A stretch of 64,000 nucleotides of DNA. Source: Pomacea canaliculata (Eukaryota; Mollusca; Gastropoda; Architaenioglossa; Ampullariidae). Below the pieces are notes generated by a model. The model saw only the letters and a list, made by a program, of their open reading frames with translations, was not told the origin of the DNA and did not search any database. Position 1 is the first letter of the stretch. Each line of letters begins with the position of its first letter. A program made the position numbers and the translations under genes. The stretch is from assembly GCF_003073045.1 (NCBI RefSeq), contig NC_037593.1, positions 17,598,725 to 17,662,724 on the forward strand, in the 5' to 3' direction. This document shows positions 8,901 to 63,478 of this stretch, in pieces.

Positions 8901-9616
8901 CAGAGTGGAATGTTGAAGGTTTCTTTAATTGCTTGCTGCAGGACTTCAAAGTCACTTCTGCTGCAATCACACCGGATGTGCGCGCGTGCCTCCTTTCAGG
9001 GATGACAGGAGTGCTCGTGAGATTTCCAGCCATGAATGAGCCCTCCACATTAGTACTCATTCACTGAACGGAAGCACCAGTTGTCTGCGTGCCAGTAGCC
9101 TAGCTGCCTGTCGACGGCCAACCAGGACATCAAACGCAAACCAAAGAAAAAAACTATTTTCTAAATCATCGCCTGAGAGTTGGAGCCCAGCAAGTTAACA
9201 CCCAATGTTGTCGTTTGCTCCAGAGTTGCCCGCCACCACCAGCGATTCTGAATCAGATACTGCGCCCCTATGGTTGAAGGAAACAGGTGTAAAGCTGCAT
9301 CACAAGGAATTTTGCGATTCCACAAAGAACTTTTAGGTATTATGGTTTACATTGGGTAGCTATGCCAATATCAAGACTGTTGATGTTCCTGACCAAAACT
9401 GACATGTTTTGGGGAATATAAAACAGTGTTAATGATGAACAGAAGTATACAAAAGATCCCAGCCACCTATCCATTCCTTCAAGGAAAAAGAGGGAAGACC
9501 TTTCACTTAAACATGAATGTATATATTCATGTGAATCATTCACGATATTATAATGATGCTTACCAGATATGGCATAATCCAGGCTAAAATAATAAAAACA
9601 AAATTTTGTTTGGTTT

Positions 9617-9622
9617 TTATTG
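9617..9622 (-). terminator. Candidate poly(A) signal of the NSE2 gene
   Basis: AATAAA on the minus strand about 690 bases beyond the NSE2 stop codon, with no other gene between. It is the best candidate found for the 3' end, giving a 3' UTR of roughly 0.7 kb. AATAAA is common in AT-rich DNA, so the assignment is tentative. Confidence 0.4.
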
Positions 9623-21962: not shown

Positions 21963-23530
21963 ATGTTAGATGTGATCGATTCTGGTCTAGCAATCTCCAT
22001 TTTGTCAGTTTATTACTGCTACATAAATCAAACACTAGTTTGTTATTTACTGGAAGACTAGCATTTTTTTTCTGAACAACGAGGGTCTTTTGTTGAGATC
22101 CGTGTCCTATGGCAACATCTAGCCAGCATTTAGCTTATTTTTTTTAGTGCCAACCGGAGAAGGGAGTCGAGCATATTTGCGTGGCTGAACTTGTAGAATT
22201 CTTAACTGTGAACACGGCCCTGTTTTAGAATGACCTGTACTGTTCCTTCGCCCTGTAGGGTATGACACTCTCTACCTTTATTCTATTCACACCTCGCCGG
22301 CAGACGTGTCATCACTGAAGTTTGAGTTAAGAGTTTGAAAAATAACGCAGACGCGCCTAAAGTTGTCATCAATAAGCGTTTGTACAAAAGGCTAAAGTAA
22401 TATAATTCAGCATTTTAGAAATAAAACAAAAACTGAAGAGAAACGTGAGAGGGAAAAAGCGATTTTCTGCAAGAGCAACGACTTAAATTTACTGTTTAAA
22501 CAGGGGACACGAAGACAAACGAACTTTTCTGACATCACTCTTCACTCCTGTAACACACACACCGTCCCTCCTACTCCGGAACACTGCACAGGGGCTGTTC
22601 TGACAGTTTAGTGCAACAGTTGAAGTCTTTAATGTGGTGTAATTGATAGGAAAGTGATTCCCCGTAGATGTGAGTTGGCACGCCCACTCAATTTGTCTTG
22701 TCGCTGTCCTGTATCTACTTAACAGCCACAGGCTCTATCAGTTACCGTCTGGTGGCGGGGTGGGGTGCGGAGACAAGGAAGAGGTGAGAAGAGCAGTTCG
22801 GAGGAAAGGCGTGGGGAAGTAGATTGTTAACCTCTAAACGGTAAATCCTTCCAACACCAAGAAGAGCCGCAGCAGACGAGATCGGAGTGGATTCGCGCTG
22901 TACCTTCCACCTCCCAACCGCCGAGGCGATCTCCGAGACCACCCGAAGCTGCTGCTACTCATGTGTGACGGATAGATTCCCAGACTTGTAGAACACGCTA
23001 CAGTTGAGTGCCGCACGCGTAGCAGCGTCCGTCCATCCATCCACACAGACAGACAACGCTCTTTCCACGCAGACGTCTCGATCAGATTATCTTCCCTTTG
23101 TCTGGCTAACTGCTGGCCAGGGTGAGGTGTCACGGGCAGCAGGTAATTGAGGGGGAGCGAGCGTGCGTTTGAATACTCTTCGAGTCCCCACCCCACTCCA
23201 GTACAATTTCCCATAAATCGTTTCGCTAACTGTGCCTCCCCGGCTCTGTAACATGGTTCCGTTGCTTAGCGCGGTGCGAGACTCGCGGTAATGGCCCGTG
23301 TCCAATTAAAGAGCGCGGTGTCTCGCGGGCTGGCCCATCTCCGCCTGCATTTGAGCAGACTTCTGAGAAAAAGGGAAGAATAAGTTGTTGAGGAAAAGGG
23401 AGGTGGGGAGATGGGTTTTGGTGAGAGGGGGAGAAAGGGAGTGCGGTTTGGGGTGGGGTGTGAACAAGATTTGTTTTGTGTCGCTTTCTTCTTTGTAATC
23501 CGTCCTGTCCATCCACGCACTTGAATTACT

Positions 23531-23703
23531 GGACTGCTGGCAGACGATTTCTTTTCCAGTTAACTACTAAAACGAGGCATGAGAGTACAAAGCTTCCGGT
23601 TTAATCACATTCATTGTTTAGGCTCGCCGAGACTGACAGCGGAGAACTTGGCAAGAGGCTAAGCGTTGGTCTTGGCAGACAGACAGCAGTCCACCTATAC
23701 ACG
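23531..23703 (+). repeat. Dispersed repeat, copy also near 50.4 kb
   Basis: About 170 bases closely match 50327-50556. Shared landmarks are GGACTGCTGGCAGA near the start, CAAAGCTTCCGGTTTA in the middle, GGCTCGCCGAGACT, and GACAGACAGCAGTCCACCTA at the end. The other copy is longer through an internal duplication. The repeat family is not recognised. Confidence 0.8.
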
Positions 23704-24817
23704 TCCGTGGTCCATCAGTGTGTGTCATGGCAGAAGCTCCAGTTGCAAGTCTGCCAGAGAAAGAGGTTATCAAGTCCTATACAGGCCACATTAGTATCCA
23801 TTACAGTACATATGGACTTTTTCATATTTTTTTTTCAGAATTTTCATATCTACGAGACAGATTTCTACGAACTCAACTCTAGCCTGGAAGTAGAAGCAAC
23901 GATGCCGATGATGCTGATGAATATTCCACGTTTTGTTAGTTCATGAAAGTCACTCATGTACATCCTACTTCACCAGTCCTTACGATTCCTCCTTCATGAT
24001 GTAATAAGCTTTTATGACTGGTAAATGTACTCAGTCCTCCATCCCATTTCCCAAACTTTTCTTTTTAATTTGAGGGCAGGAGCAGTCTCGGGAGTGAGTA
24101 CCTATTATCCAGCCATCAACCACACCAACCCTGCGGAAAGCGACACCTCGTGACTAGACACCATGGGATGTAATTTGTCAGCGCGTAACGAGTGTATTTC
24201 AATCCCGAGTGTGTTTTGAACCTGGCCCCTCGCTCTCGCCGCCTCTAGGATGAGCCGCAGTTCAAAAGGACCCCCGCCTGTGAAGGGAGAGGTGCTCCCA
24301 GATTTATGATGCTACCCCGGTGATAGCAAATCACTTCCGTCGGGGCACCGTGGCGGTGGCCTCGGTCAGACTGGAATTCCCAGAAGTGAATATCGCCGTG
24401 AACGTGTTCTGTGAGCAAGGTGGGTAAAGGTAAAGGTCGTCTCGTGACCTTTTTCAGGTCTTTAGGGAGCAAAGTGTCTTGCACTTTCTTCTTACTGCCC
24501 TTACACACCGACTGTTGTTCAAACCTAAGCTTAAAAAAAAACTGCTATTGAAATTTGCATCAGCTATCAAGTACAGCGGACACCACCTACTCCCCATACA
24601 AACAGCATAAAACGAGCGCGCACATAAACACGCCCGTCCAGTAGGGGAGAAAGGAAAGAGAAAACAAGACCAAAAAAAGGCAAGGGAGGGATTCTTTATC
24701 CGGAAAAAGATCGGAGAAAATAAATTGTAATTTAAAGTGTAGAGAAGGTATATATTTTGTTTTCATCAACACATATGTGTTTGTTCGCGAGGTGTGTGCT
24801 GGAGGGAGGGGGAGGTG

Positions 24818-45847: not shown

Positions 45848-46332
45848 CCTATCTCTCCCTCTCTCTCTTTCTCGTACGCACGCATGCACGCACTCTCTCA
45901 CACTCTCAGACACACATGCATGCACGCACACTCTCCCACATCTACACACTGACACACACACACATGCAGGCACTGAAAGGCAAGTACACGCTGCCTGTTG
46001 ACACTAACAGGTGTCGCTGTACACTATAAACCACGAAGCTTCCTGATGATTCTCCAGACATTGGTCATGTGACTGGCTGCTATAATCTGGAGGAAGTGTT
46101 GTGTGACATCACGGACTGCACTTGAGAGATTTTTCAGACGACAGTTACATCGTCAAAGCGGATATCTGCACTAAAGCTGCTGAACATCCACGGGAAGAGA
46201 GACTTAAAAACCGTCTGTCATCGATCCCAGCGAGGATCCGGTCTGACGGCTTAGAACATGTCTGCCAGGGTAAAGTTGTCAGAACGGACAGGAAATGGTA
46301 AGACGACAGATGAGCGATCGTCAAATATCAAG

Positions 46333-46486
46333 CGATCCTACACGCAGGATCCTCCCAGTCCCTTATCTTTCATGTGAACGATCCTACACTCAGTCCTACA
46401 GGATCCTCCCAGTCCCTTATCTTTCGTGTGAACGATCCTACACTCAGTCCTACAGGATCCTCACAGTCCCTTATCTTTCATCTGAA
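46333..46486. repeat. 54-bp tandem repeat, three units
   Basis: Units 46379-46432 and 46433-46486 are 54 bases each and nearly identical (CGATCCTACACTCAGTCCTA at the start, CAGTCCCTTATCTTTC later). A first unit, 46333-46378, lacks 8 bases. As 54 is a multiple of three, an 18-residue repeat stays open in one frame, but nothing suggests it is translated. Confidence 0.9.
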
Positions 46487-46640
46487 CGAAATGTATTCAC
46501 ACATTGTGTAATCATATTTTTGTGGGAGAGAATTCAGTCTGTTGCGATTTTCTCCAAATCTTTTCACTCTACAATGGCTTGGCCGAATGAATAAGAGTGT
46601 GTATGTGTGTTTGTGTTTGTGTGTGTGTGAGGGGGGAGGG

Positions 46641-46690
46641 ATTGTGTTTTACGCCGAGCCAGCAACTAAGGCTACATCACGCCCTGAACT
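46641..46690 (-). repeat. SINE tail fragment
   Basis: The reverse complement of the SINE body motif, reading TTTTACGCCGAGCCAGCAAC on the plus strand. Only the tail portion is present. Confidence 0.6.
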
Positions 46691-47855
46691 GTAACCATGC
46701 AAACTAAACCAGCTTAAACCCTATGATTTGGGGGGAATGTCACATACAAGGTTAATTCTCCGAATTCCTCCTTAGGTTAAACTAGCCTAGGTGTAAGTAT
46801 TTATATCTAGCATAACTAAATTGAGTTACTGCCTTTTATGTTTTGCATTTTTTTGCTTTTCCAAGAGATATAAGTTAAACGTTTCTGAGCGATTCAGCTC
46901 ATTTATGATAATTTCAGTTCTATCAATAGATCGTACGCCTCCCGCTCCATTTTATGATTGCATCGGCCTGTCATAAATCACTAGCAGCATGGCGAGTCTG
47001 GGCTGCACGAAGATGTCATGTTAACCTGTCTCCAACAGCAACATCCACTGCTAGTAATCTGATTACAACAAGCAACCGGAGGTCGTGGTTTCCTGTCTTT
47101 CAGTTTGACAGACAAAGTTCAGTGAAATGTTTAACGAGTCAGCGAACTGCGACCGCTAATGGTAAAATGATGAATAGTACTCAGCAATAGCAGTAGAAAC
47201 ATTTAAAAAAATTGCGTTTTTGTGAGATCCGAAAAGTCAGTTATCTCTGCTGAACTGCAGTCACGTGATGTAACACGTGACACGTTGGTGCAAATTAATG
47301 AACACATCGGTTTTGTTTGCGTATGTGCGGTAATCTGACCAAAGTCAATTGAGTTGTTGTTGTACTTTCGCGTTTTAACACAAGCTATTTTCGATTAAAT
47401 TTTTGTGGAAAAAATGTGTGTGCAGCTCTAACATTCCGTTTGTGTGGAAAATTCGCACACCACAAGGAAACATTGCTATTTCCCTGCGCCAAACACGAAC
47501 TACCTGCAGCTTTTGTTGGGGTTGGGGCGAGAGAGAGAAGAAAAAAGACGAGTCTTTATTTACGAGGGTGGTAGAAAAAGCAAAGCCTGTTTTTGGTTTT
47601 TTTTAACTTCTAGCCCTCGCCCTACACTGGGGACGAATAAAGCAAGTTACTAAACTGATGTAGGAGAATACAGGTATGGCACTAATAGTGTGCTTGTAAA
47701 AAATATGCTGAGACTGTGTACAAGTTACTACCGTCAATAATATCACCTAACAGTTCGTGGCTCAGTACTTCCATTATTGGTCGAGTGCCAACGTGGATGT
47801 TGGAAATGGGTGGCTAGATTCATTTTCTCTTTTGCGTAGTTAGTAAAATTGTCAG

Positions 47856-47911
47856 GTTGTTTGTTTGTTTGTTTGTTTGTTTGTTTGTTTGTTTGTTTGT
47901 TTGTTTGTTTG
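47856..47911. repeat. (GTTT)n microsatellite
   Basis: About 14 uninterrupted GTTT units. Confidence 0.95.
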
Positions 47912-48074
47912 AGTTGAATGCCATGTGATTTAGTTCAGCCCATGACTAAAGATTGTTTGTACTGTAGGACGTAGGTGCTCAGTTGTGTGTATATTGTGCT
48001 GTCGTTTACAAACATTTGACACAGGGGAGAGAAAAAAACCTCATTAATATAGATAGTGAGACATTTGGTTATTT

Positions 48075-48215
48075 ACAGCGACCCAAGGTCTATTTCGAGA
48101 AAGGAAACAAGGCACTGGATGCTCTCGGTTCTTAGTTTATGTAATTTTAGTTTTCTGACGAACAGATGATGATCCACAACGTCGAAAGCATTGACAATAT
48201 CTAGAAACAAACCAG
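48075..48215 (-). mobile_element. Non-LTR retrotransposon reverse transcriptase fragment
   Basis: The minus strand encodes FSGLFLDIVNAFDVVDHH followed by LFVRKLKLHKL and a stretch like the usual SWFxSYL segment. This matches the conserved FxDxxKAFDxVDH block of LINE reverse transcriptases. It is a short internal piece; flanking coding sequence is lost. Confidence 0.65.
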
Positions 48216-49498
48216 AAAATTGACTGTCGCTAGTGTCGCCATTGCTCTGTCATAGATGTGAACCCTGTGTACTCACACCCTATGTAAACCCACATCTTAC
48301 CTGATGGTCAGTGCCCACCCGTAAAGTATACATACTGTGATTGTCCTGCATCACCTTGGGACAGTCTTTCATAACTTGTTTGCGAACAGCAAGGAAAGTA
48401 CACAACGCGTGTTCTTAGGTTTTGAACATAACCTCCGTTGTTTCTTGAATAAGGAAGATATTGAAGTCTGAGCTGAAAATTCTGGAGACGAGAGATAGAA
48501 GTCGAGAGGAAAAGACTGGAGACGGGAGAAGGAAGTGATTAAATCGAAGTGAAGTTTCTTTGCAAAGATTTAAGAATACTCTACAGGGACTGATTCGACC
48601 AAAGACTTTTCCATGAGTGGCGAGGAAGAAGAGTTTTGTAAGTACACGTATTCAGGTTTACACACTCGTTCAGTGTCAGAAGCAATTGCAGATTTGTTGA
48701 GATCTTTTTGGATACTTGGCCCAAAACAGGTCAGGTTGTATTTTTTTTATAAATTTTATTAATTTGTCGTCCTGTCTGTGGGGAAGAAAGAGTCATAACT
48801 CTGACTCTGATAGTTTTTACAAAGTATGAAAGGCCATGAAAGTATTTGTAGCAAAATATGTTTATTAAATATGTTTATTATCTTGAAGGTTGTATTTTTA
48901 TTGTCCAAAGTATGTTTCAACACTCTTGATTCATGCTCAGTCTCTTCTGCATTAAAATCGCATACAGTTGTACCAGTACACAGCTCAGCATCTCAACGAC
49001 TAAAGACTAGACATGATATCGTTAATTAAAACAATTAATGTAGAAAATCATTACAGTGCTGATTTTAATGCCAAGTAAAATGTTTTCATCGCCACATACC
49101 GGACCAAGAGAAATGATGAAGATGCTCAGCTATTTATCGTTCTTACTTTCTTCACATTCTCTATACATACCTTGAGATGTGGTAACATGCCCATGGAAAA
49201 CTGCTCAATGATGATTAGATGTTTTCATAGGATGACGGATCGTATTTCTCCTCTCCTCCACGTGGACGCGTGACACTTGAAATGCGATGGCGCTGGACGC
49301 TTTCTATCGCTCAAAAATTGGTATATGAAGTGGAAAGCGTTTCTGTAATATTGCAGAAAGGACATTTTTCCCTAACATCCTTCGTCACTTTAAAAAAAAA
49401 AAAAAGTAAAAAAGAAAAAAGTAAAAAGCAGACGATCCTCCTCCACACTCAATGACTGCACCCTAGACAGTTGCCGAGCTCGTCTGATGGTAGAGAGG

Positions 49499-49550
49499 GT
49501 TACACCTGGTCACACCTGGTCACACCTGGCTACACCTGGTTACACCTGCT
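49499..49550. repeat. 11-bp tandem repeat
   Basis: Five diverged units of CACACCTGGTC or close variants, with a related short run (CACACCTGT) at 44938-44957. Confidence 0.75.
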
Positions 49551-49992
49551 AAATGTCCTTGTGACAGACGCTACCTTCCGCCCTGGTTGATGGCCACTCG
49601 TCTGTCTTCAATCTCTTAGCTTAGCAATCTTTTATTTCCTTCTCTCACTGTCTGTCATGTCCGTCCGTCTGTCCATCCGTCTGTCTCGGCGCTGAGGAAG
49701 TGGTAAATAGAAGAAGACTCGGGATAGACGTAATGGTCCAGTAGTTGACATGTCATTTCTACGAGAAAGCTTCTAATTACCTTGTGAATTGTTCACACTA
49801 CAGGCGTTCGATGTTATGATTTCTGGAATGAAAGCAGGTTGGTCGATTTCCTATTAAGACCAATCTCAGTTAACCTTTGTTTTGGTGGATTCTCTTTATA
49901 GAGAAGATTTACATTATATATATATCTACACATATATGTTTATATACATTTATATCCGTACATATCCTCTACTTTGAATATTTTCACTGCAG

Positions 49993-52322
49993 ACTCTACC
50001 TCTTCAACTCATATGATGTCTTCGACTCCAAGTCCAACAATCAATCATCCACCGAATCCACCGAATCCACCGAAACCACAGAAACCAGAGACTGGTAGGT
50101 GGTGTTGTTTGTAAGACTATCACTACGTATCATCAGCTGGCTGATGACCAAACGGCCTCCACGCAAGCCTGCCCGTCATACCATTTGGTGGATGCATTGT
50201 TGTATTTTTAAAGACATATATAATTGGTAATTTAGGAGAAAAATCGCATAATTGAGCTAGAATAATCATTTCTGAACACAATTATCTCCCTTTCACGTGA
50301 AAGTTTGACCACGAACTAATCTCCCTGGACTGCTGGCAGAGGATTTTTTTTCCAGTTAACTGCTAAAACGAGAGATTAGACGACATAGCTTCCAGTTTAT
50401 TCGCATTTCAGATTAATTACTAAAATGAGGCATCAGACTACAAAGCTTCCGGTTTATTCACATTCTTTGTTACGGCTCGCCGAGACTAACAGCGGAGAAC
50501 TTCGCAAGAGGCTAAGTGTTGGTCTTGGCAGACAGACAGCAGTCCACCTACACACATAGATGGTTTAACGGGAATTTCCTGTAATTTCCCATACTGCCCT
50601 TCCTTTTCCTTTTGGAAACATGGCGCAAGCTACACTACTCGCGAGGTCTGTGACATGATCTTCGGAGTTTCGGACGAAGAAATGGAGTTGGAGATGACGA
50701 TGACGAAGACGAAGAAGAATGTATTGACTTACAGAACAGCTTAGCTTTAGAGGAAGGTGACGACGAAGTAATTGACGAGACTCGATTAGACGACAATCAT
50801 ATGGTTAAAGCAGACGGAGCAGATGAAGATGAAGATGAAATGAACAGCCATCCTGTGCTTATTGCCAAGTTCAGAGAGTACAGCCTCGGGTGGTAGGTCA
50901 TGTTGTTTATAAGTCTCACAATAATGTGTACAGTGTGCGCGCTCTTCAGACAAACATAACATTTCATGTTTCTCTACTGAGGCTTCTAACCCTGTTTGTG
51001 TGTTTGTGTGTGTGTTTACAAACATTGTGACTGTTGTAGAGACCAGTAACCCAACACATAACAGCTCAGTGACGGTGGCAGTCCTCATCTGTCTAGCTGT
51101 TCTGTTTGTGGTTGTTGCGGTTGTTGCCGTGTTTTTCTGGAGAAGGAAACGACAAGCTGATGATGTCAGGTTAGTGTCCTTCTCTGCTCATCCATGTCGA
51201 TGGTTGGATGGATGTTTACACTTGTGTGTCTGTCCGAATGTGTGTTTGTAAGTTGTGTTTAAAACATAGTTAACAAAACAGTTACTAACAGGGAACAAAG
51301 CAAAGGAATATTTCAAGACAATTCTGTTGCTGGATAATTTTTTTTATAAATTTGTCGACGATGACGACGACAACGATGATGATATGATGATGATGATGTC
51401 TGCAGGAAAGAGCACAACCCCATCTGCCTCTCTGCTGCGACCAACTTACATCGTAGGCAGGACTCGTTCCATGTTTATGACAAACTGTCTTATGTAAGTT
51501 ATGATCAGTTTTGACAACTTGTTGCGTACAGTTAAGACCTGGTCATTTATTTATTGTCTCGTCGTCTTATTTCTTAACTCATTATCATTTTTATCCATTG
51601 TCTCTTTGTTAGTCATTCTTGAGTTCATGGTGCTGGTTCACACAAGTTTATAACTCGCGTTCCAGGACAATAAAAGAGCCAACATCAACAATGCTTCGAC
51701 TGCAGCAGACAACGACAACAACGATGACTACACCTACATCGATGACCCCACGATAAACAAGGACGTTGTCAGGCTGCACCACGACAGGCCGGTGACGACC
51801 GATGGTGAGCACGCACTCACTGACCCCTCTGTCAGCGGACTGGAACCTGACCTCTCCACCACCTACACACTCGCCCGACCCATAGACAACGACATTCCTG
51901 GCCCTCAGCCTCCCGACTATTTTAGTCTGGAGGAGAGGGAAAAGAAAGTTTGTGGTGAGCCAGCCCAGTACTTTACTCTGGAGGAGAAAGGTGAGAAGAA
52001 TTCAGCCGCGGACACCGACACCCAGCAGTACTTCATTCTGGAGAAAAGACAGGAAGGAGAGGGTGGAGAGTCCGTCTCCAAGCACATGTCCTCCAGGTCT
52101 GAAGTCGACTACTTTGTGCTGGAGAAGGACGATGGTCAAGAACTCGACTGCGCAGACGTGACGAGTAGTGATACATCACGTGATTCGTCGGAAGAAGCCG
52201 AGTATTGCCGACTGGATCCGAACAGCTGTCTGGAGTCTGACTACACTCCGCTGACTCGCCCTCCACAGCCTCCTGATGCCAGAGGCGACAACCCCTACTG
52301 CCTGGCCTCGCATCCCGAGTAA
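49993..52322 (+). CDS. Receptor-like membrane protein, array copy 1 (3' part)
   Basis: A type I single-pass protein of unknown family. Exons seen: 49993-50094 (phase 1-1, Ser/Thr then Pro-rich stalk), 51040-51169, 51406-51493 and 51666-52322. The 51040 exon has a possible glycosylation site HNSS, then a transmembrane helix VAVLICLAVLFVVVAVVAVF and a basic stop-transfer WRRKRQ. The last exon encodes an acidic tail with about ten tyrosines: YIDDP, YTLA, DYFSLEE, QYFTLEE, QYFILEK, DYFVLEK, then YCRL and YTPL nine residues apart, and PYCL. The YCRL-x9-YTPL pair fits the ITAM pattern. Such tails usually bind SH2 proteins once phosphorylated, so a signalling receptor is inferred. A second stalk exon, present in copy 2, is broken here. 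No signal-peptide exon was found upstream, so the 5' part is missing or diverged. Confidence 0.75.
50327..50556 (+). repeat. Dispersed repeat, copy of 23.5 kb repeat
   Basis: Matches 23531-23703 but contains an internal near-duplication of about 60 bases: a TAACTGCTAAAACGAGA segment and a TAATTACTAAAATGAGG segment, each followed by GCTTCC-GTTTATTC. It lies in an intron of receptor copy 1. Confidence 0.8.
50570..50860 (+). mobile_element. Possible transposase N-terminal fragment
   Basis: A segment with LHYSREVCDMIFGVSDEEME followed, after a frame change, by a long acidic stretch (DDDDEDEEECIDLQNSL). This looks like the acidic N terminus of piggyBac-type transposases but lacks any catalytic block. 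It replaces the 5' part of a stalk exon of receptor copy 1; the exon's 3' end survives at about 50863-50894. The assignment is weak. Confidence 0.3.
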
Positions 52323-52372
52323 CCACAATGTCAATGGAACGAATACTCTTTTTGAGATCAGTATCAGACAAC

Positions 52373-52378
52373 AATAAA
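52373..52378 (+). terminator. Candidate poly(A) signal of receptor copy 1
   Basis: AATAAA 51 bases after the copy 1 stop codon. Further AATAAA signals at about 53772-53786 are conserved in the equivalent place after copy 2. Confidence 0.5.
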
Positions 52379-53851
52379 CATTGATATGATCATTGGGTAT
52401 ATTGATGGTCAGCCTCACATTTCCTTCTCACTAGAAAACTTGACATTTAAGTTTGAAATTTTCCTACTGGAGCTACAAAGCAAAGTGGCTGAGGGGACAT
52501 CTCTCTCTCTCTCTCTCTCTCTTTCTTTTTTCTTCTCTCTCTCTCTGTATATATATCTCCGTTATTTTGTGACGTTGCTGTCCGTCGTTGGTCTGAGATT
52601 CTTGCTTGGATCCCTATCATCGTCCTCAATATTATTCCTTGCCTTCGGCTTTCCACTCTCCTATTACTTTATTCTCTAGTAACAATGTTTCCTTAACCTA
52701 AAGTCGCCGGTCGTGTGTTTTTACATGTGAAAACAGTGTGATGTTCTCTCTCTACAGGATGACAATGAACCAGCTTTCTCATCTACGGTCTCGACTCTTC
52801 TGGGTGTTTGTTAGTTTACTGTGACAGATAAAGTGATGGACTGTCCGATATAAAGTTACAGAGTCGTAAAACTTTTTGGATCGTGGAGACAATGATTCAG
52901 ATTTTTTTTTCTTGATAGAACGATGTACAGGATCTTAGTGTCTTAGTGCTGTCATGTGTTGCTCTCTGTGTGTTTATGTTTATGCACAAGTCTGTGCAGG
53001 AGAGAGGGATAAGATGTTTGTGTACAAAGCATACAGGTTCACAAGGTTGCCAGCTACATGTCATATATATATGTGTGTGTGTAACACAAAATGTTTTTAG
53101 ACATTAAATTACGGGGTTTTTTATTTCCCTTGTGTTCTTCTGTGATGCACCACTTTGTCTTATCTTGTAACTAGCATTTGTTTAGTAACTGAGACCACCC
53201 TTTATATCATCAGTAATGTTTGTCATTTGTCTCCGACTTCCCTGCTCCCTTATTCATCATTTTACGCCATGTCTCAAGCCTCATGATCAAACAACGACAA
53301 TAGTTGTATTCAGTGCTATGGTGTTAGAGACCTCACTTTTCTCGGGGCCAGCTTTTACTTGAGGGCGGTCCATCTCTCCTCCTCGCTGTCACACCCTCCC
53401 CAACTCTCTAAACAGTCAGGTACCCATTCCCACCACCTGGTCGAATGGCGAAAGTTTGCTGCCCTAATCGGGCATTGAACCAGCGCGCTATCAGTTGGAA
53501 CGCCAGCGCTCGGCTCTCTGCTTGTCACAGCAGCGGTGAGGAAGTAAAGAGACCTTGTGAGTAACAAGACACGAGGATGTTGACACCAGATCTTTTCTTG
53601 ATGCCTAGGATAATGCGAGAGATGGGTGGGTGAGGAAAGAGAGGAAAAGTGAGACGGATACGGTCGAATATTCTACGTCACAGAAAAGACGATTGTGTAT
53701 ATTTAACAAGCTACATTTTTTACTTTCTGAATTTTTTAAAGCGTATTTCATATCCCACAAGAGATGTCGAGAATAAATACTGAATAAAGTTTAGCACCAG
53801 AAGGGATTTTTCTGTTGTGTGTGTCTGAGTTAGAGTGTGTGGAGGGAAATT

Positions 53852-54032
53852 GGTGTTTCACGCCGAGCCAGCGACTACGACTACAGCATGTTCAGACTAC
53901 AGTGTGAAGACTGTAAACAGATGTCACATGCAGAGAAAGAACAGCATGCCTGAAAACAAGAGCTGAACCCAGGACAGTCAACCCTCACTGTATTGGTGAC
54001 AGGTGATAACCGTTGTACCACCAGACCGCCCG
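53852..54032 (-). mobile_element. tRNA-derived SINE (copy C)
   Basis: The most complete copy. Read on the minus strand: CTGGTGGTACAACGGTTATC (box A region), the CACCAATACAGTGAGGG block, GGGTTCAGCTC (box B), a body of about 80 bases, then the tail GTAGTCGCTGGCTCGGCGTG. It predates the segmental duplication because copy D lies at the same place after receptor copy 2. Confidence 0.75.
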
Positions 54033-54178
54033 GTTGGGAGAGAGAAAGAGTAACGAGTGCATTGTGGCGTGTCCGTCGCAGGTTCATATCTCACATCCAT
54101 CTCAGTTAATTTTCTCTGGATCTAGCACCTCTTGAAAGAACTTCACAGAGAGACCCTAAGCTGCTGACACAGTGTTTA

Positions 54179-54195
54179 CCACCACCACCACCACC

Positions 54196-54227
<32 letters not shown>

Positions 54228-54228
54228 C
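54179..54228. repeat. (CCA)n(CAA)n microsatellite
   Basis: About ten CCA units followed by CAA units. A shorter, more broken version lies at the equivalent place in the next duplicate (62447-62483). Confidence 0.9.
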
Positions 54229-54787
54229 ACAGCAATATGATTCCTAGAGCACTGGCTAGTGTAATAGTTTCACAGGGAGGTGAAGTGATGTTAGCATCTC
54301 GCACTTCTTCCACCTCCCAGCATTGAGACACACTTCTTTGAGGAACATCCGTCGGCGCATCCACACCCCACCCCAACTTTACCACGTGATCTCGTCGTGG
54401 CGGCCCCGTGAGGTCCAGTTTGCAGTAAAACACAGAAAGGTTTCGTTAAAACACTTCCCTGTTGGAGCTAAAATAGTTTTATGTTTCACTCTCTGTCCGC
54501 AATGTCGAGACACTGAGTCAAAAAGAGTAAAGAAGGATGTCAATGTGTTTTCTCACCTGACACAACCTTTCAGCTGACGTTAGAGAGCCGTTGAGACGCA
54601 CGTTGCCCAGTCATCTGCAGGAAGTAGTTCACTCCAGTGTGGCGCCATCTTGTGAGGACGTAGCTCCAGGAGTTTACTGACTACAGAGTCAGACGGTGTG
54701 TCAGGGAGTACGAGAGGCAACATTTTGTGAGTATTCATCTTTATACATGTCTGTCGTCTGTCAACATCACGGTAGTTGTTGGCTGTT

Positions 54788-54820
54788 TGAGTTTTACGCC
54801 GTGTCAGCAAGTAAGGTCAA
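54788..54820 (-). repeat. SINE tail fragment
   Basis: TTTTACGCCGTGTCAGCAAG on the plus strand is a variant of the SINE tail in reverse. It lies in the first intron of receptor copy 2 and is repeated before copy 3 (63067-63100). Confidence 0.5.
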
Positions 54821-54947
54821 TGGTTCATGGGTCACAACCTATGGTGCCAGTCTCTCCCATAATGGTGAGGTCAGAATGTCGTTACCGAGACCTAATGCTG
54901 ATGTATTTTATTTTCAGTGTTAACTCACTGTTGACGGTTGTTCCGAG

Positions 54948-56666
54948 ATGGACCTGACAGGGATCCTAACCCTCCTCCTCCAGCTTATCTCAGACTATGT
55001 TGTTTCAAATAAGAGTAAGTACACGGATGCTGTGGACAAGAACACATACTAGAGCTGATCACACACACGTCACCACATCTTCACTTGTACACCTTCCCCC
55101 TTCTATGTAGCAATACATTAATACATATATTACTGATTTTCTGCTTATCAAGACTGTCCCATGTCATATTTTTCTTAGTATGCTTTCTCTATCCTACTTT
55201 CTATATCGGAATCTCCTAAAACATGCAGAACACCACCCACCCACACACCAACAGTCATTCGTGTTACCACGTCAGGGTGCACACCTTCAAATAAAAACCT
55301 CACATAAAAAATAAATGTAGATATCTTCTATATACACTTCAGAATTCAACTTATACAGATGGAGAATTTTTAAAGTAAAAGATATTAAAATTTTTCGTCA
55401 ACAACAGTCATACATTTCTGGAAAATACTATTACGACCTTGTATTAAAGTGATTCTAAAGGCAAAATAAAACTGCTTAGAATCGCGTAAAGAGTAGGATA
55501 AATTTGAATTTCGTCTATTTATATGTGTGTTCATGTGGAAATCGTTGAAGGTTTTTAGTAGAATGTTGTGTTTAATAAGAACAATTACACGGGACAATTT
55601 TTTTGCTTCGACTCAATCTCGTTCTCCGTCACGTGACCCTATGACGTGTGGCTTCCATAGTGAGAACCATGCCTCGAGAACGTGCTGCACCCGATTGCCA
55701 CGAAAAGATGGGAAAAGATTCAAAATTTTCTTTTTATCAGTTTCCTCAAGACAAGGCGATACGAAACGAGTGGGTCATACCCATAGAAAGGCTCGATCCC
55801 AGTATGAAAAAGCTTTGGGAGCCCAAAGAGTGAGACGTATTATGCTCAAAGCCATCTTGATTGTAGATTAGTTTGGATATCACTAATCCGAAATCCAGCC
55901 GAAATAGTGCTAATAAGCCTCCATAGCCTTTGCTGACTGTGTACGGGACCTAGGGCTGTTTATTGATGCAGAGCTCTCCATGTGCAACCATGTTAGTTCT
56001 GTTGTGGCAAAGTCCTACTACTTTTTGAGGACTTTAGGTAGACTACGGCCCATGCTGACTCAAGCTGCTGCCAACTCACTTGCTGTGGCTACCATCACAT
56101 CACGATTGGACTATTGTAACAGTGCATTGTGGGGTATACCTGCTATTCAGCTGGATCAAATCCAAAGAGTTCAAAACACATCAACAGGATTGTCACGCGT
56201 GCAAAGTCGTCCACTGAGCACATCACCCCTATCCTACAGAGCCTTCACTGGCTCCCAGTGAACTAGCGCATTGATCACAAAGTAATTTCCATTGCTCAGT
56301 CCTGCATGTCTAAAACTGCTCCTGACTATTTGCAGGAGATAATTCCTCCTTATCAGCCGTCGCGTACCCTGCGCTCAGGCTCCCAGTCACGCTTCTGTCT
56401 CCCTGCAGTGGAAGACACCAACAAGAAGCGCACTGGAGCCAGGGCCTTCAAAAACGCGGCACCTAAGCTGTGGAATGCTCTGCCATCGTCACTCTCCACC
56501 ATCACCTCACCAACCACGTTTCGCAAAAAACTGAAAACCCATCTGTTTATTTAAGACAGACTTAAACAACCTAGCAACACTTCTGTCTTTACTTTTACTT
56601 TTCTGGTGTTTTATATATTTGTTCACTGTATCTTTTTCCTTTTTTTTTCTTATTTTTATTTTTTTG

Positions 56667-56697
<31 letters not shown>

Positions 56698-59600
56698 GCT
56701 GCGCAGTGATCATTCTTCTGAATGGATACCTGCGCATTTCAAATAGACATCATCATCATCATCATCATCATCTTCATCATCATCGTGCTCTGTAATTGTA
56801 ACTAAATATATTTTTGAAACGTTTGACCGTCGCCACAGCCTTATCACAAGCCTTGAGTATCCCTTTAATACACCGTGGTATTATTTACCCATCTTTATAT
56901 TTTCTAGAAGTATTTTACAATCTCGTACTGTCAAAACAGTAACTGCACAGTTACCACAGCTATTCGTGATGTGACATGTTTTAGATACCCGGGGCCAAAA
57001 TCTACATATCGGGGACAATAGAAAAGAACATGAGCTTCATCCTCTTTATAATTTATATAGAAAGGACATTTATTTGTGTTCTCTATCTTCTGTACAAGAC
57101 GAGTTTTGTGCGTGTTTATCTCACTCACTCCTAGACGGAAGAGTATTAAACATCCTTCATGTGAACGAAAGTGGCAACAGTGCGAGAAGGGGAAGTCCCC
57201 CTCTCCACACCCCACGCACCTCCAAAAGGAAATAAGTCTCTCCACCCCTCCCCAAGAAAGAAGACCCCACGAAGAACTGCGTAACAAGTAAAAAGGAAAA
57301 AAACATGCGACCACTTTTCCTCAGTTTGATGTTAGGAAACAAATTTTTCTTTGAATGCTTGTTGAAATACCTGTAAATATTTTGTATATCCTTGTTTTTA
57401 TTGTTTAATAAACAAATATGAAAAAAACATCTATGAAGACTTGCTGAAGAATCGCTTGCTACAGGACACGGTTCTCAGACATTTTTGTTAATCGGAGCCA
57501 GATTTTGATAGTTCTCATATAGCAGCTGACTATCAAAGGGGAATGTCCATGTTCCCCACATGTCATATCTAATGGTGTTAATCTAATCCCAGCTTCTGGC
57601 TGGAGTTAGTGTGACGGTAAGGAGGTGGAGGGGAGCGGGGTGGCGTAGCCAGCCCTGTGTGTTGTCCCGCTGCCTTGTAAAAATCCTGGGCCACGTGAAT
57701 TTTGGGCACCACTTGAGTTTTGGACCTCACGTGCGAGGCATGAAGTGCTCACCCAGTGTGGAGTGCGACAGAAGGAGTATATATATATAGACGGGGGTTG
57801 AAAGCCAAAGGGGGGGGGGGGGGTTGGATTAACACAGACAGTGTGTAAAAGTGAAGAGGCTGTTTGGAAGTTGCTAGCTGGAGCGAGGTGTGACACCACT
57901 ATTGTCTGTCGTGGACTACCGAGGGGAGGCTCTGCACGGCCTTCAAGAAACGAGGGGACCGGAAACGCTGCACAGTCTCCAAGAAGCTCTGCGATTGTCT
58001 GCGGAGAGAAGACTCTACTACAGTGAGCGGGGAGTGAGGCGCCGCGCTCGAGACGGCAAGTTTTGACAGCCGGAGTCGGCGCGACGACGACGACGACGAC
58101 GACGACACCAGCACGACGGGAGCAGCGCAACTAGAAGGAACTCCCCCATCATCCCAAACAGCCAGAAAGGTCGTCACAACGACTGGAGCGCCGGGAGGAA
58201 AGGCCTGTCTTCAGCAACTCTACTGCTGTGTGCGGGGAGCGATGAGGACGGAAACCGGCGTGAGAAAGTTCAGGAGAGACCTGAGTAGAGCAGAGCAGGT
58301 GCCAAGGACTGGGCACCATCGTTACCTACGTGGAGGGAACAGTAAAACTTTCCTACTCCTTAGAAGAACTATCAGGGTAAGAGCAAATGTTTGAACTGTT
58401 TAAGAAGACTGAGACACTTGGTGAAGCGAACTGATAGAGTGGGACATCAGTAGTCAGTAGCGGTGCTGTGCACCCTGAGTATTGTAGGTGCTAGCGTGAG
58501 TTGATGTGCAACCTTGGTCTTAGTATTGGATTATAAAAGTGCTCTACAAAACTTATCATTACGAATGCCTTGAAATTGACATGTTGTCATAGATACTGTG
58601 GATATAAGTTTGCAGTTGTGTAAACTGCTGAAGACCAGCCTGCGTGCGGTCTTAGTATCTGCGGTTAATAATATTTGGTGTATGCTGTTGTAACGCTGAT
58701 ATCGTTGTGGACGAGGGGAAGTGTATGGTTTAAACTGATTTATTTGGAAAGTTTCATGTATTGCTATTTATTTTAATAGTTTTTGTGTATAATGCCACAA
58801 AACCAGGTAAACATGATTGAACATGACATGACTGAACATCTGGCAGATAATACAATGTTTATGGACACATTTTAAAGGATTTATAAATAGATGTATGTAC
58901 AACTACACACATCCATTGTTTTATTGTAAGATTGTATTTCCTCTGATGACTCTGCCTCTCCAGAACCTATGACCACTTTGAGCACTTCAAGTTCAGGACC
59001 AGATTCAGATCCAGAGAGTTCAACCTCCACTGGTAAGTCATGATGTTTTTAAAGGATGCAACAGTCTGGTTGTAAATGTAGTCTACCCCATCTCTGCCAT
59101 ATCTGGATAATCAAAAGCGTATTAACGAACTGATACTTCAGCTAACCAGACGTGTGTGCACATGTACGTGTGTCTGTGTGTATTTATCCGTGTGGATCTG
59201 TGTGTCTGTGTTCGTGCCCGCGTGGTCATAATTATCTCAATTAGTGACTATACCAACAGCATGTAATGACCAGTTTCCTCCCAAAACCATCATATCTCCC
59301 CCCCAACCATATCAACAACCCTCGTGAGTAGACATCGAAAATTGAATCGATGGACGACCAGAAGAGAAATCGATGACATAAGCAGTTAGTGTCAGATATT
59401 TCCAACAGACCCACGTGTTGTTGACACGACTACCGCCACCATCTCAATAAACAGAAGTGGCTGCTTGACTATACTCATTCAGAGAACTGATCTCACGATT
59501 ATGATTTTGTCTATAATTAATTCTTCATCAACTTTGTCATTTATTGTTTTGTTTTGAAGTTCGCATTGAATGTATAATGTAACATTTAAATAAATTTGTA

Positions 59601-61761
59601 GGTGTTTGATGTTATGGCCTATTTCACTCACGACCTCCTGTTAGTGGATGCTCTTTATAGAGAAGCTTCAATGTATATACATGTCTGTACATGTCCTCTA
59701 CTTTGATTATTTCCACTGCAGACTGCTCTACCTCTTCAACTCCTACGGAAACTTCGACTACTTCAAGTCCAACACCAGATCCAACGATCAGAGCATTGAC
59801 TGGTAGGTCGTGTTGTTTATAAGTCACACAACACCGACATCAGTAACAGTTAGTAATTAGGATCGAGATTTGTGACTACACCAGTCCCACCAACAGTCCG
59901 TGGATATTTATTAACGGTAGACATGTAACCCCGGACTTAATACACTCGTTCCTGAGTCTCGTTGAAGAATTATTTCTCCCTTTAGATATTATTTCTACAA
60001 ATCCTTCTGTAACCACTTATTATAAGTCAAACAACAATTATGTAAATATGTCACAATGATGTGATCGTTAAAGAAGCCCACGAAGCTTTATAAAAAGTAA
60101 ATATATTTGTACTAATGCTTTTATTTATAAAATATTAAACTCTAGTAAAATGTGACAGGTAGCTCGTGTGGGTGGGTGTGTTCGAACCCACGCATGTCTT
60201 GTTATCTAGATTCGTAAGTCTACCTGTAGCATCCACAGTTTATCGACACTCACACACATATATATATACACACACTACTATAAATATGTGTTAGTCTGCA
60301 TTATTAATATAGTATTTCTCCCTTTCTCCCTTCAGACAGCACGACTACAGAAACAATTTGGACATCTTCCGATTCAACACCAAGTTCAGAGAGTTCAGCC
60401 TCGGGTGGTAGGTCATGTTGTTTATGTCTCACAATTATGTACAGTGTGTGCGCTCTTCAGACAAACATAACATTTCATGTTTCTCTACTGAGAATTCTCT
60501 TTATCAAATAGTAAACACTAGCATCATGTGACAGCGTGTCCGTGTGTTTGGGATCATGCATCTATAGGAGTGTCAGCGTGTGTCTTTGTGTGTATATGTG
60601 TGCGTGTGTGTGTGTTTACCAACATTGTGACTGTTGTAGTGACCAGTAGCCAGGCGAGTGCAGCAAATGAGAGCTCTGTGATGGTGCCAGTGCTCAGCTG
60701 TCTGGCTGTCGTGTTTGTGGTTGTTGTGGTTGTTGCCGTGTTTTTCTTGTGGAGAAGGAAACGACAAGCTGATGATGTCAGGTTGGTGTTCCTCCATGTC
60801 GATGGATAGATGGATATTTATAGGTGCGTTTCTATCCGGATGAGTGTTTGTAAGTTTGTTTTTAGTTTTAAGTTTAAAGTGATGATGATGATGGATGATG
60901 GATGTATGGTGGATGGATGATGGATGGATGATGATGGATGATGGATGACGATGACGATGACGATGATGTCTGCAGGAAAGAGAACAACCCCAGCTGCCTC
61001 TCTGTTGAGACCAACTTACATCACAAGCAGGACTCGTTCAACGTTTATGACAAACTTTGTCATGTAAGTTTTGGCCAAATTTGACAACTTTCTATCGTTG
61101 TTTATTTATTTATTGTCACGTCGTCTCATTTCTCTCATCATTATTATTTTCATCCATTGTCTTTTTGTTTTTTTATTAGGCAGGTCAAACACTTGAAATA
61201 TTATACACACACACTCAGCATGTCATTCTTGAGTTCACGGTGCGGGTTCACACAAGTTTATAATTCGCGTTCCAGGACAACAGGAGAACCAACATCAACA
61301 ATACTTCCACTACAGCAGCGAACTCACGTGACAACGACAACAACGATGACTACGCCTACATCGATGACCCCGCGATAAACAAGGGCGTTGTCAGGCTGCA
61401 CCACGACAGGCCGGTGACGACCGATGGTCAGCACGCACTCACTGACCCCTCTGTCAGCGGACTGGAACCTGACCTCTCCTCCACCTACACACTCGCCCGA
61501 CCCACAGACAACGACATTCCTGACCCTCAGCCTCCAGACTACTTCATTCTGGAGGAGAGGGACAAGAAAGAGTGTGCTGAGCCAACCCATTACTTTATTC
61601 TGGAGGAGAGGGGTGAGAAGAATTCAGCCGCAGACACAGACACCCAGCAGTACTTCATTCTGGAGGAGAAACCGGAAGGAGGGGTTGGAGAGTCCTCCAG
61701 GTCTGATGCTGACTACTTCGTACTCCCCTCCTTCGCTGTCATACCTTCCCCAACTCTCTAA
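54948..61761 (+). CDS. Receptor-like membrane protein, array copy 2
   Basis: Exons: 54948-55014 (start and signal peptide MDLTGILTLLLQLIS), then, after a 3.9-kb intron, stalk exons 58964-59032, 59722-59802 and 60336-60407, a transmembrane exon 60640-60781, 60976-61063, and the tail exon 61276-61761. All ectodomain exons are phase 1-1, so stalk units can be added or lost without changing frame. The stalk is Ser/Thr/Pro-rich (TPTETSTTSSPTPDPT) and likely O-glycosylated. The helix is VPVLSCLAVVFVVVVVVAVF followed by LWRRKRQ. The tail shares with copy 1 the YIDDP, YTLA, DYFILEE, HYFILEE, QYFILEE and DYFVL motifs, then ends abruptly in PSFAVIPSPTL, a sequence read from what is 3' flanking DNA in copy 1. 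The ITAM-like end is therefore lost. No globular domain exon was found in intron 1, so a stalk-only ectodomain is possible. Confidence 0.75.
55648..55833 (+). pseudogene. THAP-domain fragment of a transposase
   Basis: The frame contains MPRERAAPDCHEKMGK, then FSFYQFPQDKAIRNEWVIPI and ER. This follows the THAP pattern MPxxCAAxxC...F.FP.D...R..W...I.R, including the AVPTM-preceding core FP and W. The first Cys is Arg here, and the distal Cys/His pair is missing because a stop follows at LWEPKE. It lies inside the TTAA-flanked element, so it is most likely part of its decayed transposase and not a host gene. Confidence 0.55.
55935..56790 (+). mobile_element. LINE 3' end (L2/CR1-like), 5' truncated
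   Basis: Encodes the end of a reverse transcriptase: RDLGLFIDAELSMCNHV, TITSRLDYCNSALWGIP, then, after one frame change near 56230, the C-terminal block NAAPKLWNALPSSLSTI and FRKKLKTHLFI with a stop. These match the usual SRLDYCNSLL and NAAPxLWNxLP blocks of L2/CR1-type LINEs. A T-rich tail (56640-56697) and an (ATC)n tract (56748-56783) follow. It is nested inside the TTAA-flanked element. Confidence 0.8.
56870..57330 (-). mobile_element. LINE reverse-transcriptase C-terminal fragment
   Basis: The minus strand encodes NKCPFYINYKEDEAHVLFYC followed by PRYVDFGPGYL, the typical CPxCxxxxEDExHxLFxCPxY motif at the end of many non-LTR retrotransposon proteins. Its 3' flank (56870-56960) is repeated at 63905-64000, so this insertion predates the split of receptor copies 2 and 3. 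Confidence 0.65.
57600..58380 (+). promoter_or_regulatory. Promoter-like region and possible 5' exon in copy 2 intron 1
   Basis: A TATATATATAG run (57779-57790) and a G14 tract (57810-57823) are followed by GC-rich, purine-rich sequence with a GAC repeat (58084-58106). It ends in a strong donor, ATCAGG/GTAAGAG, near 58377. An open frame of about 45 codons from MRTETGVRKFRRDL reaches that donor. This could be an alternative first exon for copy 2, or the end of an unidentified inserted element. I recognise no protein similarity. Confidence 0.35.
60880..60967. repeat. (GAT)n/(GATG)n repeat beside splice acceptor
   Basis: A degenerate run of GATG and GACGAT units directly upstream of the 60976 exon. 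A shorter version lies at the same place in copy 1 (51357-51398). Confidence 0.85.
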
Positions 61762-62089
61762 ACAGTCAGGTACCCATTCCCACCACCTGGGTCGAATGGC
61801 GAAAGTTTGCTGCCCTAGTCGGGCATTGAACCAGCGCACTCTCAGTTAGGACGTCAGCACTCGGCTCTCTGCTTGTCACAGAAGCGGTGAGGAAGTAAAG
61901 ACGACATTGTGAGTAACAAGACACGAGGATGTTGACACCAGATCTTTTCCTGATGCCTGGGTAATGCGAGAGTGAGATGCGGTCGAATATTCTGTCACAG
62001 AAAAGACGATTGTGTATATTTAACAAGCTACATTTTTCACTTTGTGAATTTTTTTAAAGCGTATTTGATATCCCACAAAAGATGTCGAG

Positions 62090-62106
62090 AATAAACACTG
62101 AATAAA
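62090..62106 (+). terminator. Candidate poly(A) signals of receptor copy 2
   Basis: Two AATAAA hexamers about ten bases apart, roughly 330 bases after the copy 2 stop, conserved after copy 1 at about 53772-53786. Confidence 0.45.
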
Positions 62107-62147
62107 GTTTAGCACCAGAAAGGATTTTTCTGTTGTTTGTGTCAAAA

Positions 62148-62299
62148 CTGCAGCATGTTCAGACTACAGTGTGAACACTGTAAACAGATGTTACATGCAG
62201 ATAAAGAACAACATGCCCGAGACAAGAACTGAACCCAGGACAGTCAACCCTCACTGTATTGGTGACAGGCGATAACCGTTGCACCACCAGACCACCCGG
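62148..62299 (-). mobile_element. tRNA-derived SINE (copy D)
   Basis: The same insertion as copy C, carried along in the duplication. The tail motif is missing at its left end (the sequence jumps into CAGCATGTTCAGACTACAGT), while box B (AACTGAACCCAGG in reverse) and the box A side are kept. Confidence 0.75.
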
Positions 62300-63408
62300 A
62301 TGAGAGAGAGAAAGAGTAACGAGTATATTGTGGCGTGTCCGTCGTAGGTTCAAATCTCATATCCCTCTCAGTTAATTTTCTCTTGATCTAGCACCTCTTT
62401 AAAGAACTTCACAGAGAGACTCTAAGCTGCTGACACAGTGTTTAACACCACCACCACCACCACCACCACCAACACCAACAAGAAAAACAACACCACAGCA
62501 ATATGATTCCTAGAGCACTGGCTAGTGTAGTAGTTTCACAGAGAGGTGAAGTGATGTTAGCATCTCGCAATTCTTCCACCCAGCATTGAGACACACTTCT
62601 TTGAGGAACATCAGTCGGCGCATCCACACCCAACCACGTGATCTCGTCGTGGCGGCCTCGTGAGGTCCAGTTTGCAGTAACACAGAAAGGTTTTGTTAAT
62701 GCACTTCCCTGTCTGAGCTAAAATGGTTTTGTGTTTCACTCTGTGTCCGTAAAGTCGAGTCGCTGAGTAAAGGAGAGTAAAGAAAGAAGTCCGGGTTTTT
62801 TCACCAGACACAACCTTTCAGCTTCACGCTCCACTGACGTCTGAGAGCCGTTGAGACGCACGTTGTATCAAGAGACAAACAATGCCCAGTCACCTGCAGG
62901 AAGTAATTCACTCCAGTGTGGCGCCATCTTGTGAGGACGTAGCTCCATGAGTTTGCTGACTACAGAGTCAGACGGTGTGTCAGGGAGTACTAGAGGCACC
63001 ATTTAGTGAGTATTCATCTTTGTACATGTCTGTCGTCTGTCAACATCACGGTAGTTGTTGGTTGTTTGAGTTTTACACCGTGTCAGCAAGTAAGGTCATG
63101 TCAAGGCAAGGAGACAGTAAGACTACTGTAGGTGGTTAGAGTGATTGGCTGGGCTTGTACACAAACGTATACCTGAGATCACACACACACACATATATAT
63201 ATTGTTAGGATGTAAAAGCGAAATGGTGTTGTTAATTGTCAGCCATGGACTAGACCCAGGTGCTATGTCGTCGTCAATGGTTCATAGGTCATAACCTGTG
63301 GACGGTGCCAGTCTCTCCCATAATGGTGAGGTCAGAATGTCGTTACCGAGACCTAATGCAGATGTATTTTATTTTCAGTGTTAACTCGTTGTTGACGGTT
63401 GTTCCGAG

Positions 63409-63478
63409 ATGGACTTGACAGTGATCCACTATCTCATCCTCCTCCTGCTTAGCTCGATCTTTGTTGTTCCAGATAACA
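63409..63478 (+). CDS. Receptor-like membrane protein, array copy 3, signal-peptide exon
   Basis: The first coding exon of a third gene. The preceding acceptor is ATTTTATTTTCAG, and 30 bases of 5' UTR match copy 2 almost exactly. The exon encodes MDLTVIHYLILLLLSSIF, a clear signal-peptide hydrophobic core, then VVPDN, ending phase 1 at a GTAAGT donor. Copy 2 has MDLTGILTLLLQLIS in the same place. The signal core is stronger here. The rest of the gene lies beyond the window. Confidence 0.7.

Follow-up and report, generated by a model that had tools for sequence, protein, structure and literature searches.

What kind of protein is encoded by the tandemly repeated genes that lie towards the end of a 64,000-nucleotide stretch of the genome of the snail Pomacea canaliculata (C4:17598725-17662724, hereafter the window)? 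The original prediction had described at least three tandem copies of a single-pass receptor-like gene of no named family, perhaps with a role in immunity or self-recognition. With the next 50 kb of the chromosome added as cluster coordinates 64001-114000, we find six related genes arranged head to tail within 45 kb of a single chromosome; the window contains just part of this array, which has a richer design than first noted. As judged from their sequence, the genes would encode type I single-pass receptors consisting of a signal peptide (genes 2 to 6), a stalk, one helix, a basic stop and a cytoplasmic tail. We consider it rather probable that these are signalling receptors working like those that carry an immunoreceptor tyrosine-based activation motif (ITAM), with a stalk or coil outside the cell and Src-type phosphorylation followed by double-SH2 recruitment inside.

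Layout of the array

A tblastn search of the 114 kb with tail, membrane, juxtamembrane and signal-peptide pieces placed the six tails at 51669, 61279, 72776, 80831, 89374 and 96309 and revealed six membrane exons. Three signal-peptide exons belong to one kind; a second kind is present in genes 5 and 6. A check of the flanking chromosome for copy number showed that the next 50 kb supply the rest of copy 3, most of which lies outside the window, and the whole of copies 4, 5 and 6, with no further gene copies within the next 30 kb beyond cluster coordinate 114 kb. Whole-genome searches, which covered 440,159,624 bases in 24 contigs, returned six matches (seven scored candidates) for the gene 1 tail, all six of them in the array; a query with the repeats and the pair of the gene 3 tail, run at E values up to 10, retrieved the same six copies. 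The gene 3 membrane and juxtamembrane query gave eight matches in the array, gene 4 being missed, and one elsewhere (E 0.008).

Two of the tails matched no Pfam family at E values up to 0.1, the gene 1 tail matched no PDB chain at E values up to 10, and the titles and abstract openings searched in the literature contained no description of this six-gene family. The earlier description of tandem single-pass receptor-like genes without a named family is thereby upheld for six places in the genome, and the window contains, as described, two each of the tails, membrane exons and signal-peptide exons, together with the phase 1-1 stalk exons. The count of at least three copies agrees with the six of the array, but within the window itself copy 1 has no recognisable signal peptide, copy 2 is complete except that its tail is truncated, and copy 3 is represented by its first exon only. 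Likewise, the proposed repeat unit of 8.4 kb holds for the flanks, which are spaced by 8263-8479 bases (7041 for one intron stretch); on the coding side of copies 1 and 2, matches are spaced by 9511-9622.

Gene models and ectodomain

Exons were placed by consensus splice scoring and comparison between copies and subsequently joined. The phases are consistent: phase 1 at the exit of the signal peptide, 1-1 for the stalk exons, 1-2 for the membrane exon, 2-0 for the juxtamembrane exon and 0 for the tail exon. The models of genes 2-6 are open from ATG to stop with agreeing phases and comprise 334, 393, 421, 548 and 295 residues, respectively; gene 3 reaches 435 residues with its two extra candidate exons, and the gene 1 model has 324 residues without the 5' end. 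GT-AG borders were obtained for 39/39 introns of the six models, a result that is partly due to construction, because splice consensus guided the choice of exons.

To control for chance in the stalk, we counted phase 1-1 exons in which Ser/Thr/Pro make up at least 50%, taking each distinct exon end once. When the donor score was strict, eight stalk-type exons were found in 45-100 kb of the + strand (7/15 model exons and one unused), and none in 1-45 kb or 100-114 kb of this strand or on the whole 114 kb of the - strand. The looser donor score used for modelling yielded 17 in the cluster (15/15 model exons and two unused), none in the other 59 kb of the + strand and one in 114 kb of the - strand. 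The N-terminal parts of copies 1 to 4 consist of 50 to 62% Ser/Thr/Pro. Gene 4 also contains an optional phase 1-1 exon (cluster 77140-77238, TCCVGTCNGCNNNCNSC...), cysteine-rich and of low complexity, which keeps the frame open.

To look for a folded ectodomain hidden in introns, the three + frames of 46000-51700, 55010-60800, 63470-74000 and 76500-97000 were scanned against Pfam with stops read as X. These + strand scans returned a THAP fragment, coiled-coil families and weak matches below cut-off, mostly to membrane segments, and no folded ligand-binding domain; coiled-coil families such as MCPsignal and DUF948 passed their cut-offs and were rejected as composition matches. Neither EMI/EGF repeats nor Ig-like domains gave a Pfam match, either in the three + frames across the gene intervals or among the four models scanned.

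A tyrosine pair in a constrained tail

Two features had gone unnoticed in the original prediction, namely an ITAM-like pair in the tail and a predicted cysteine-doublet heptad coil in genes 5 and 6, beyond the window. The pair, [DE]xxYxxL-x8/9-YxxL, lies near the C-terminus of 5/6 tails (genes 1, 3, 4, 5 and 6). The ITAM test pattern YxxL/I-x6-12-YxxL/I is present in the same number of tails, with a spacing of 8 or 9, and is missing from copy 2, where a deletion of approximately 1.3 kb removed the pair. Upon shuffling of the tails of genes 1, 3, 4, 5 and 6, a pair with spacing 6 to 12 arose in 23, 6, 4, 10 and 0 of 2000 shuffles, respectively. The tails are acidic and Tyr-rich and bear up to four YFxLE repeats, which gene 6 has lost in frame while keeping the pair on a short tail. 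In an alignment of five tails, YxYID, the YFxL repeats and the neighbouring DTDTQ contain invariant residues. An AlphaFold model of the gene 1 tail, based on a two-sequence alignment, had a mean predicted local distance difference test (pLDDT) score of 32, which is uninformative and consistent with disorder.

Replacement (Ka) and silent (Ks) divergence was estimated by the Nei-Gojobori method for the 15 gene pairs. For the tail, Ka/Ks was below 1 in 14/15 pairs, the exception (genes 2-6) resting on 56 codons, and genes 4-5 gave a Ka of 0.37 and a Ks of 0.84 (ratio 0.44, Fisher p 2e-5). The tail is constrained coding sequence under purifying selection. The stalk and membrane parts are not clearly constrained and are freer to change: a comparison of the gene 2 and gene 3 stalks gave 15.5 replacement changes over 155.7 sites and 1.5 silent changes over 57.3 sites, an excess of replacements that is not significant (Fisher p 0.075, counts rounded down). 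Diversifying selection outside the tail is possible. The family had been called fast-evolving, which is borne out by the differences in exon content and tail length but not by the substitution ratios of tail and stalk.

Possible readers of the tail are encoded elsewhere in the genome, for which 46 SH2 matches were obtained. On C14, SH2 exons at 13378885 and 13382676 are followed by tyrosine-kinase exons at 13388309-13390234 on the same strand within 12 kb, an exon order that we take to be that of a Syk or Shark gene; from their position, these exons may form one gene. A locus on C2, at which segments from two SH2 domains occur together with one from a tyrosine phosphatase, presumably resembles SHP2/corkscrew. 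A third place, C13:17767500-17777400, has three close SH2 exons and a nearby weak reverse-transcriptase match, with no kinase or phosphatase in the 9.9 kb of + strand.

A candidate cysteine-doublet heptad repeat

Genes 5 and 6 contain a 21/42-base tandem repeat that reads IQDCCQE VTECCQK in the frame whose phase 1 donor fits the next stalk exon. The acceptor of this heptad exon is in phase 2, whereas the signal peptide leaves in phase 1, and joining the two directly leads to 17 stops. The frame is restored by a 46-base phase 1-to-2 exon at 84648-84693 in gene 5 and 93944-93989 in gene 6, which is the only candidate common to both genes between signal peptide and heptads among nine phase combinations; an equally good exon appeared in 9/300 shuffles. 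As the two genes are approximately 91% alike over the coil stretch, introns included, the presence of this exon in both is not independent proof. In 25/25 matched heptads of gene 5, position a is occupied by I or V and positions d and e by C, a pattern that fits the a/d arrangement of an extracellular coiled coil and predicts such a coil. The best phmmer matches in PDB were coiled coils and helical proteins, both natural and designed.

Genes 3 and 4, which have no repeat at this place, carry the short candidate exons IKDCCTSVDSCLQTCQSL (66548-66603) and NDCCPTRGDCCLQTCLSS (77467-77523). A separate candidate exon of phase 1-to-2 lies at 65882-65951 in gene 3; an equally good one was found in 3/100 shuffles. 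The short exons may constitute a short cysteine-doublet version of one to two turns. A genome search with the heptad exon gave 15 matches, seven in the array and eight elsewhere (E 0.007 to 0.9); the best of the latter, on C4 near 6.95 Mb, has a simple-repeat look in the one frame read. The heptad array of gene 5 is interrupted by a stretch of 1.67 kb (cluster 85303-86969) with an 80-base duplicated flank of 98.75% identity.

Proposed mechanism and alternative explanations

In receptors working like ITAM receptors, the Ser/Thr/Pro stalk would be O-glycosylated and the cysteine heptads would form a disulphide-locked coiled coil, which could hold the receptors as pre-formed oligomers and set their reach. 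The predicted heptad segment is expanded by the 21/42-bp tandem repeats, to about 7 heptads in gene 6 and 25 in gene 5. Upon contact with a ligand or cell, Src-type kinases would phosphorylate the tail, and the ITAM-like pair would recruit a Syk-like double-SH2 kinase, while the YFxLE sites may recruit other SH2 proteins or drive internalisation. Copies without one tail module (the pair in copy 2, the YFxLE repeats in copy 6) could act as modulators. In this scheme, predictions comprise the location at the cell surface together with glycosylation, disulphides and phosphorylation, as well as the ligand and the cell type. We regard as rather improbable a more specific version, in which a snail-specific ITAM-type family has its reach and oligomer state set by repeat expansion of the coil (one or two turns in some paralogues, up to 25 heptads in another), its paired cysteines possibly serving as a redox- or force-sensitive lock, and its signalling tuned by modular loss of the pair or the YFxLE repeats.

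Several observations weigh against ITAM-type receptors. The copies are homologous, and the five pair matches are not five independent events; moreover, classical ITAMs have a spacing of 6-8, and the spacing of 8-9 found here is at or just over this limit. Genes 5 and 6 stop at a TAG a few codons past the pair, 17 codons before the next in-frame stop, and several cysteines are lost among the roughly seven heptads of gene 6. The repeat is open in two of three frames and gene 5 remains open when both the 46-base and the heptad exons are skipped; therefore, the coil could be optional or noncoding. For gene 1, no signal-peptide or 5' flank match was found upstream within the window, Ka/Ks of the membrane and juxtamembrane parts exceeds 1 in 6/15 pairs, and the Pfam scans gave no folded ligand-binding domain. 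Finally, all models depend on predicted joins.

A possible, albeit doubtful, alternative is that the genes encode mucin-like surface proteins for adhesion or scavenging, in which the stalk is the working part and the YxxL motifs are internalisation sorting signals, with no ITAM-type signalling. The Ser/Thr/Pro-rich N-termini of copies 1 to 4 and the lack of a folded binding domain in the Pfam scans speak for such proteins, and YFxL fits the YxxPhi sorting signal. However, sorting needs no pair, and 5/6 copies retain the spaced pair together with its acidic residue at -3, including copy 6, which has no YFxLE. It is likewise doubtful, and could coexist with ITAM-type signalling, that the cysteine heptads of genes 5 and 6 are an intronic minisatellite and that all copies consist of signal peptide, stalk, helix and tail. 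Two open repeat frames, and a frame that survives skipping of the short exon and the heptads, would be expected of such a minisatellite, whereas the phases work in the cysteine frame through the 46-base exon, which both genes possess. Moreover, genes 3 and 4 have no repeat but contain a related DCCx5C exon flanked by good splice sites, and gene 3 possesses its own candidate 1-to-2 exon.

We consider it unlikely that the array is mostly decaying, with one or two working genes, several pseudogenes and stalk and tail differences that merely reflect decay. Such a history would account for copy 1, which has no recognisable signal peptide and carries a dispersed repeat between its stalk and membrane exons, for the lost tail end of copy 2, and for the TAG common to copies 5 and 6 and the short tail of the latter. 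Against this stand five models, 295 to 548 residues long, that remain open and lack no splice site, and the tail Ka/Ks below 1 in 14/15 pairs. Very unlikely, in our view, is a common family for the array and the polymorphic single-pass genes found in GRC and PTC2, two schistosome-resistance clusters of Biomphalaria glabrata (PMC4361660, PMC7494358), which we compared by description. According to passages of these reports, those genes are also clustered single-pass surface genes of a snail, several of them without a named family, and of similar size (166 to 530 codons in PTC2, PMC7494358; 295 to 548 residues in the array). Their gene content varies from haplotype to haplotype, that of the array from copy to copy. 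Our five complete models share the TM1 layout, being clustered and extending by over 50 residues both outside and inside the membrane. In contrast, GRC N-termini are described as large, making up more than half of the protein, beta-strand-rich and mostly with fibronectin III domains (PMC4361660), whereas short Ser/Thr/Pro stalks or a predicted helix are found here: the N-terminal parts of genes 2 to 4 are Ser/Thr/Pro-rich and account for less than half of the protein, strand content being judged by composition, and that of gene 5, although more than half, is a heptad coil. In addition, the passages on GRC and PTC2 describe no ITAM-like tail, whereas the array genes have a long Tyr-rich one.

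Comparison with known receptors

Draper, CED-1 and MEGF10 are single-pass engulfment receptors with ITAM-type Tyr tail motifs read by Src- and Syk/Shark-type kinases, and the Draper/MEGF10 ectodomain consists of EMI and EGF repeats. The single pass and a tail with ITAM-type motifs are shared with the array genes, in which, however, no EGF-repeat ectodomain was found. The leukocyte sialomucins CD43 and PSGL-1 also combine a Ser/Thr/Pro-rich ectodomain with a single helix and a signalling tail, but are not known to have cysteine heptads or an ITAM-like tail pair. Tetherin/BST2 has an extracellular coil, but a different topology and no known Tyr-rich tail; its cysteine-bearing coiled coil (PDB 3mqb, 3nwh, 2xg7) matched at E 0.018 to 0.042, which reflects composition, and no homology is claimed. 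Mincle, a lectin receptor whose neck is disulphide-linked, forms dimers in advance via an extracellular cysteine and signals in ITAM fashion according to a passage of PMC11632378, as proposed here. It differs in that its neck has a single cysteine and FcR-gamma serves as a separate adaptor, whereas the array genes would have cysteine pairs in each heptad and the motif in their own tail, and no lectin domain was found in them. Overall, the array represents a variation on a known receptor type and not a categorically new system.

Other features of the locus

The exons assigned within the window are listed in Table 1. The first intron of gene 2 contains a THAP-domain fragment (55684-55851, + strand, E 5e-4, below the family cut-off) that is probably transposon-derived, and open frames at 55917-56554 (+) and 56931-57320 (-) that are putative non-LTR (long terminal repeat) reverse transcriptase ends; a large part of the latter is common to the first intron of gene 3 at about 90% identity. 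The stretch 57404-58823 of the same intron has no counterpart in gene 3 and includes a good donor (58376); this stretch could represent either an inserted element or the first exon of another transcript. A dispersed repeat of about 250 bases occurs at 50310-50565 and 23513-23711, with around 40 further genome matches, mostly 86 to 92% identical; one copy lies between the gene 1 stalk exon and the remnant of the third stalk exon of this gene. An open frame at 18225-18560 (+) contains GGNVML..VKVLDFGMAK, a presumably kinase-like stretch that gave no Pfam match at E 0.01.

Table 1. Exons of genes 1 to 3 assigned within the window.
Feature	Coordinates	Strand	Evidence
Gene 1 Ser/Thr/Pro stalk exon, phase 1-1	49993..50094	+	splice scan, model
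Gene 1 transmembrane exon, phase 1-2, ending ..RRKRQADDV(R)	51040..51169	+	tblastn, model
Gene 1 juxtamembrane exon, phase 2-0	51406..51493	+	tblastn, model
Gene 1 tail exon ending with the stop at 52322; has the C-terminal ITAM-like pair and four YFxLE repeats	51666..52322	+	model, motif scan
Gene 2 signal-peptide exon, phase 1 donor	54948..55014	+	tblastn, model
Gene 2 stalk exon 1, phase 1-1	58964..59032	+	splice scan, model
Gene 2 stalk exon 2, phase 1-1	59722..59802	+	splice scan, model
Gene 2 stalk exon 3, phase 1-1	60336..60407	+	splice scan, model
Gene 2 transmembrane exon	60640..60781	+	tblastn, model
Gene 2 juxtamembrane exon	60976..61063	+	tblastn, model
Gene 2 tail exon, truncated after fourth YFxL	61276..61761	+	between-copy comparison, model
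Gene 3 signal-peptide exon; gene continues to cluster coordinate 73432	63409..63478	+	tblastn, model

Biological implications

A role in immunity or self-recognition, as first suggested, is compatible with the ITAM-like tail, and our guess is that the receptors most likely serve recognition on blood cells. What makes an immune role attractive is that schistosome resistance in another snail is governed by clustered single-pass genes, as passages of PMC4361660 and PMC7494358 describe, but the ectodomains there are built differently. Balancing selection at many immune genes of Pomacea canaliculata itself is reported in a passage of PMC11417965. If the proteins are made, they would be mollusc single-pass receptors that bear the ITAM directly, have no recognisable EGF or Ig ectodomain and are encoded in a changing tandem array. 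The cysteine-doublet coil, if real, would be an unusual receptor stalk whose length could be changed by slippage of a 21-base unit, and, should the repeat-expansion reading hold, repeat number could differ between individuals and give rise to a repeat-length recognition polymorphism. The host is an invasive pest snail that also transmits nematode parasites, and the array, if our reading is true, would offer snail immunologists a defined set of candidate signalling receptors that can be compared with the resistance clusters of Biomphalaria.

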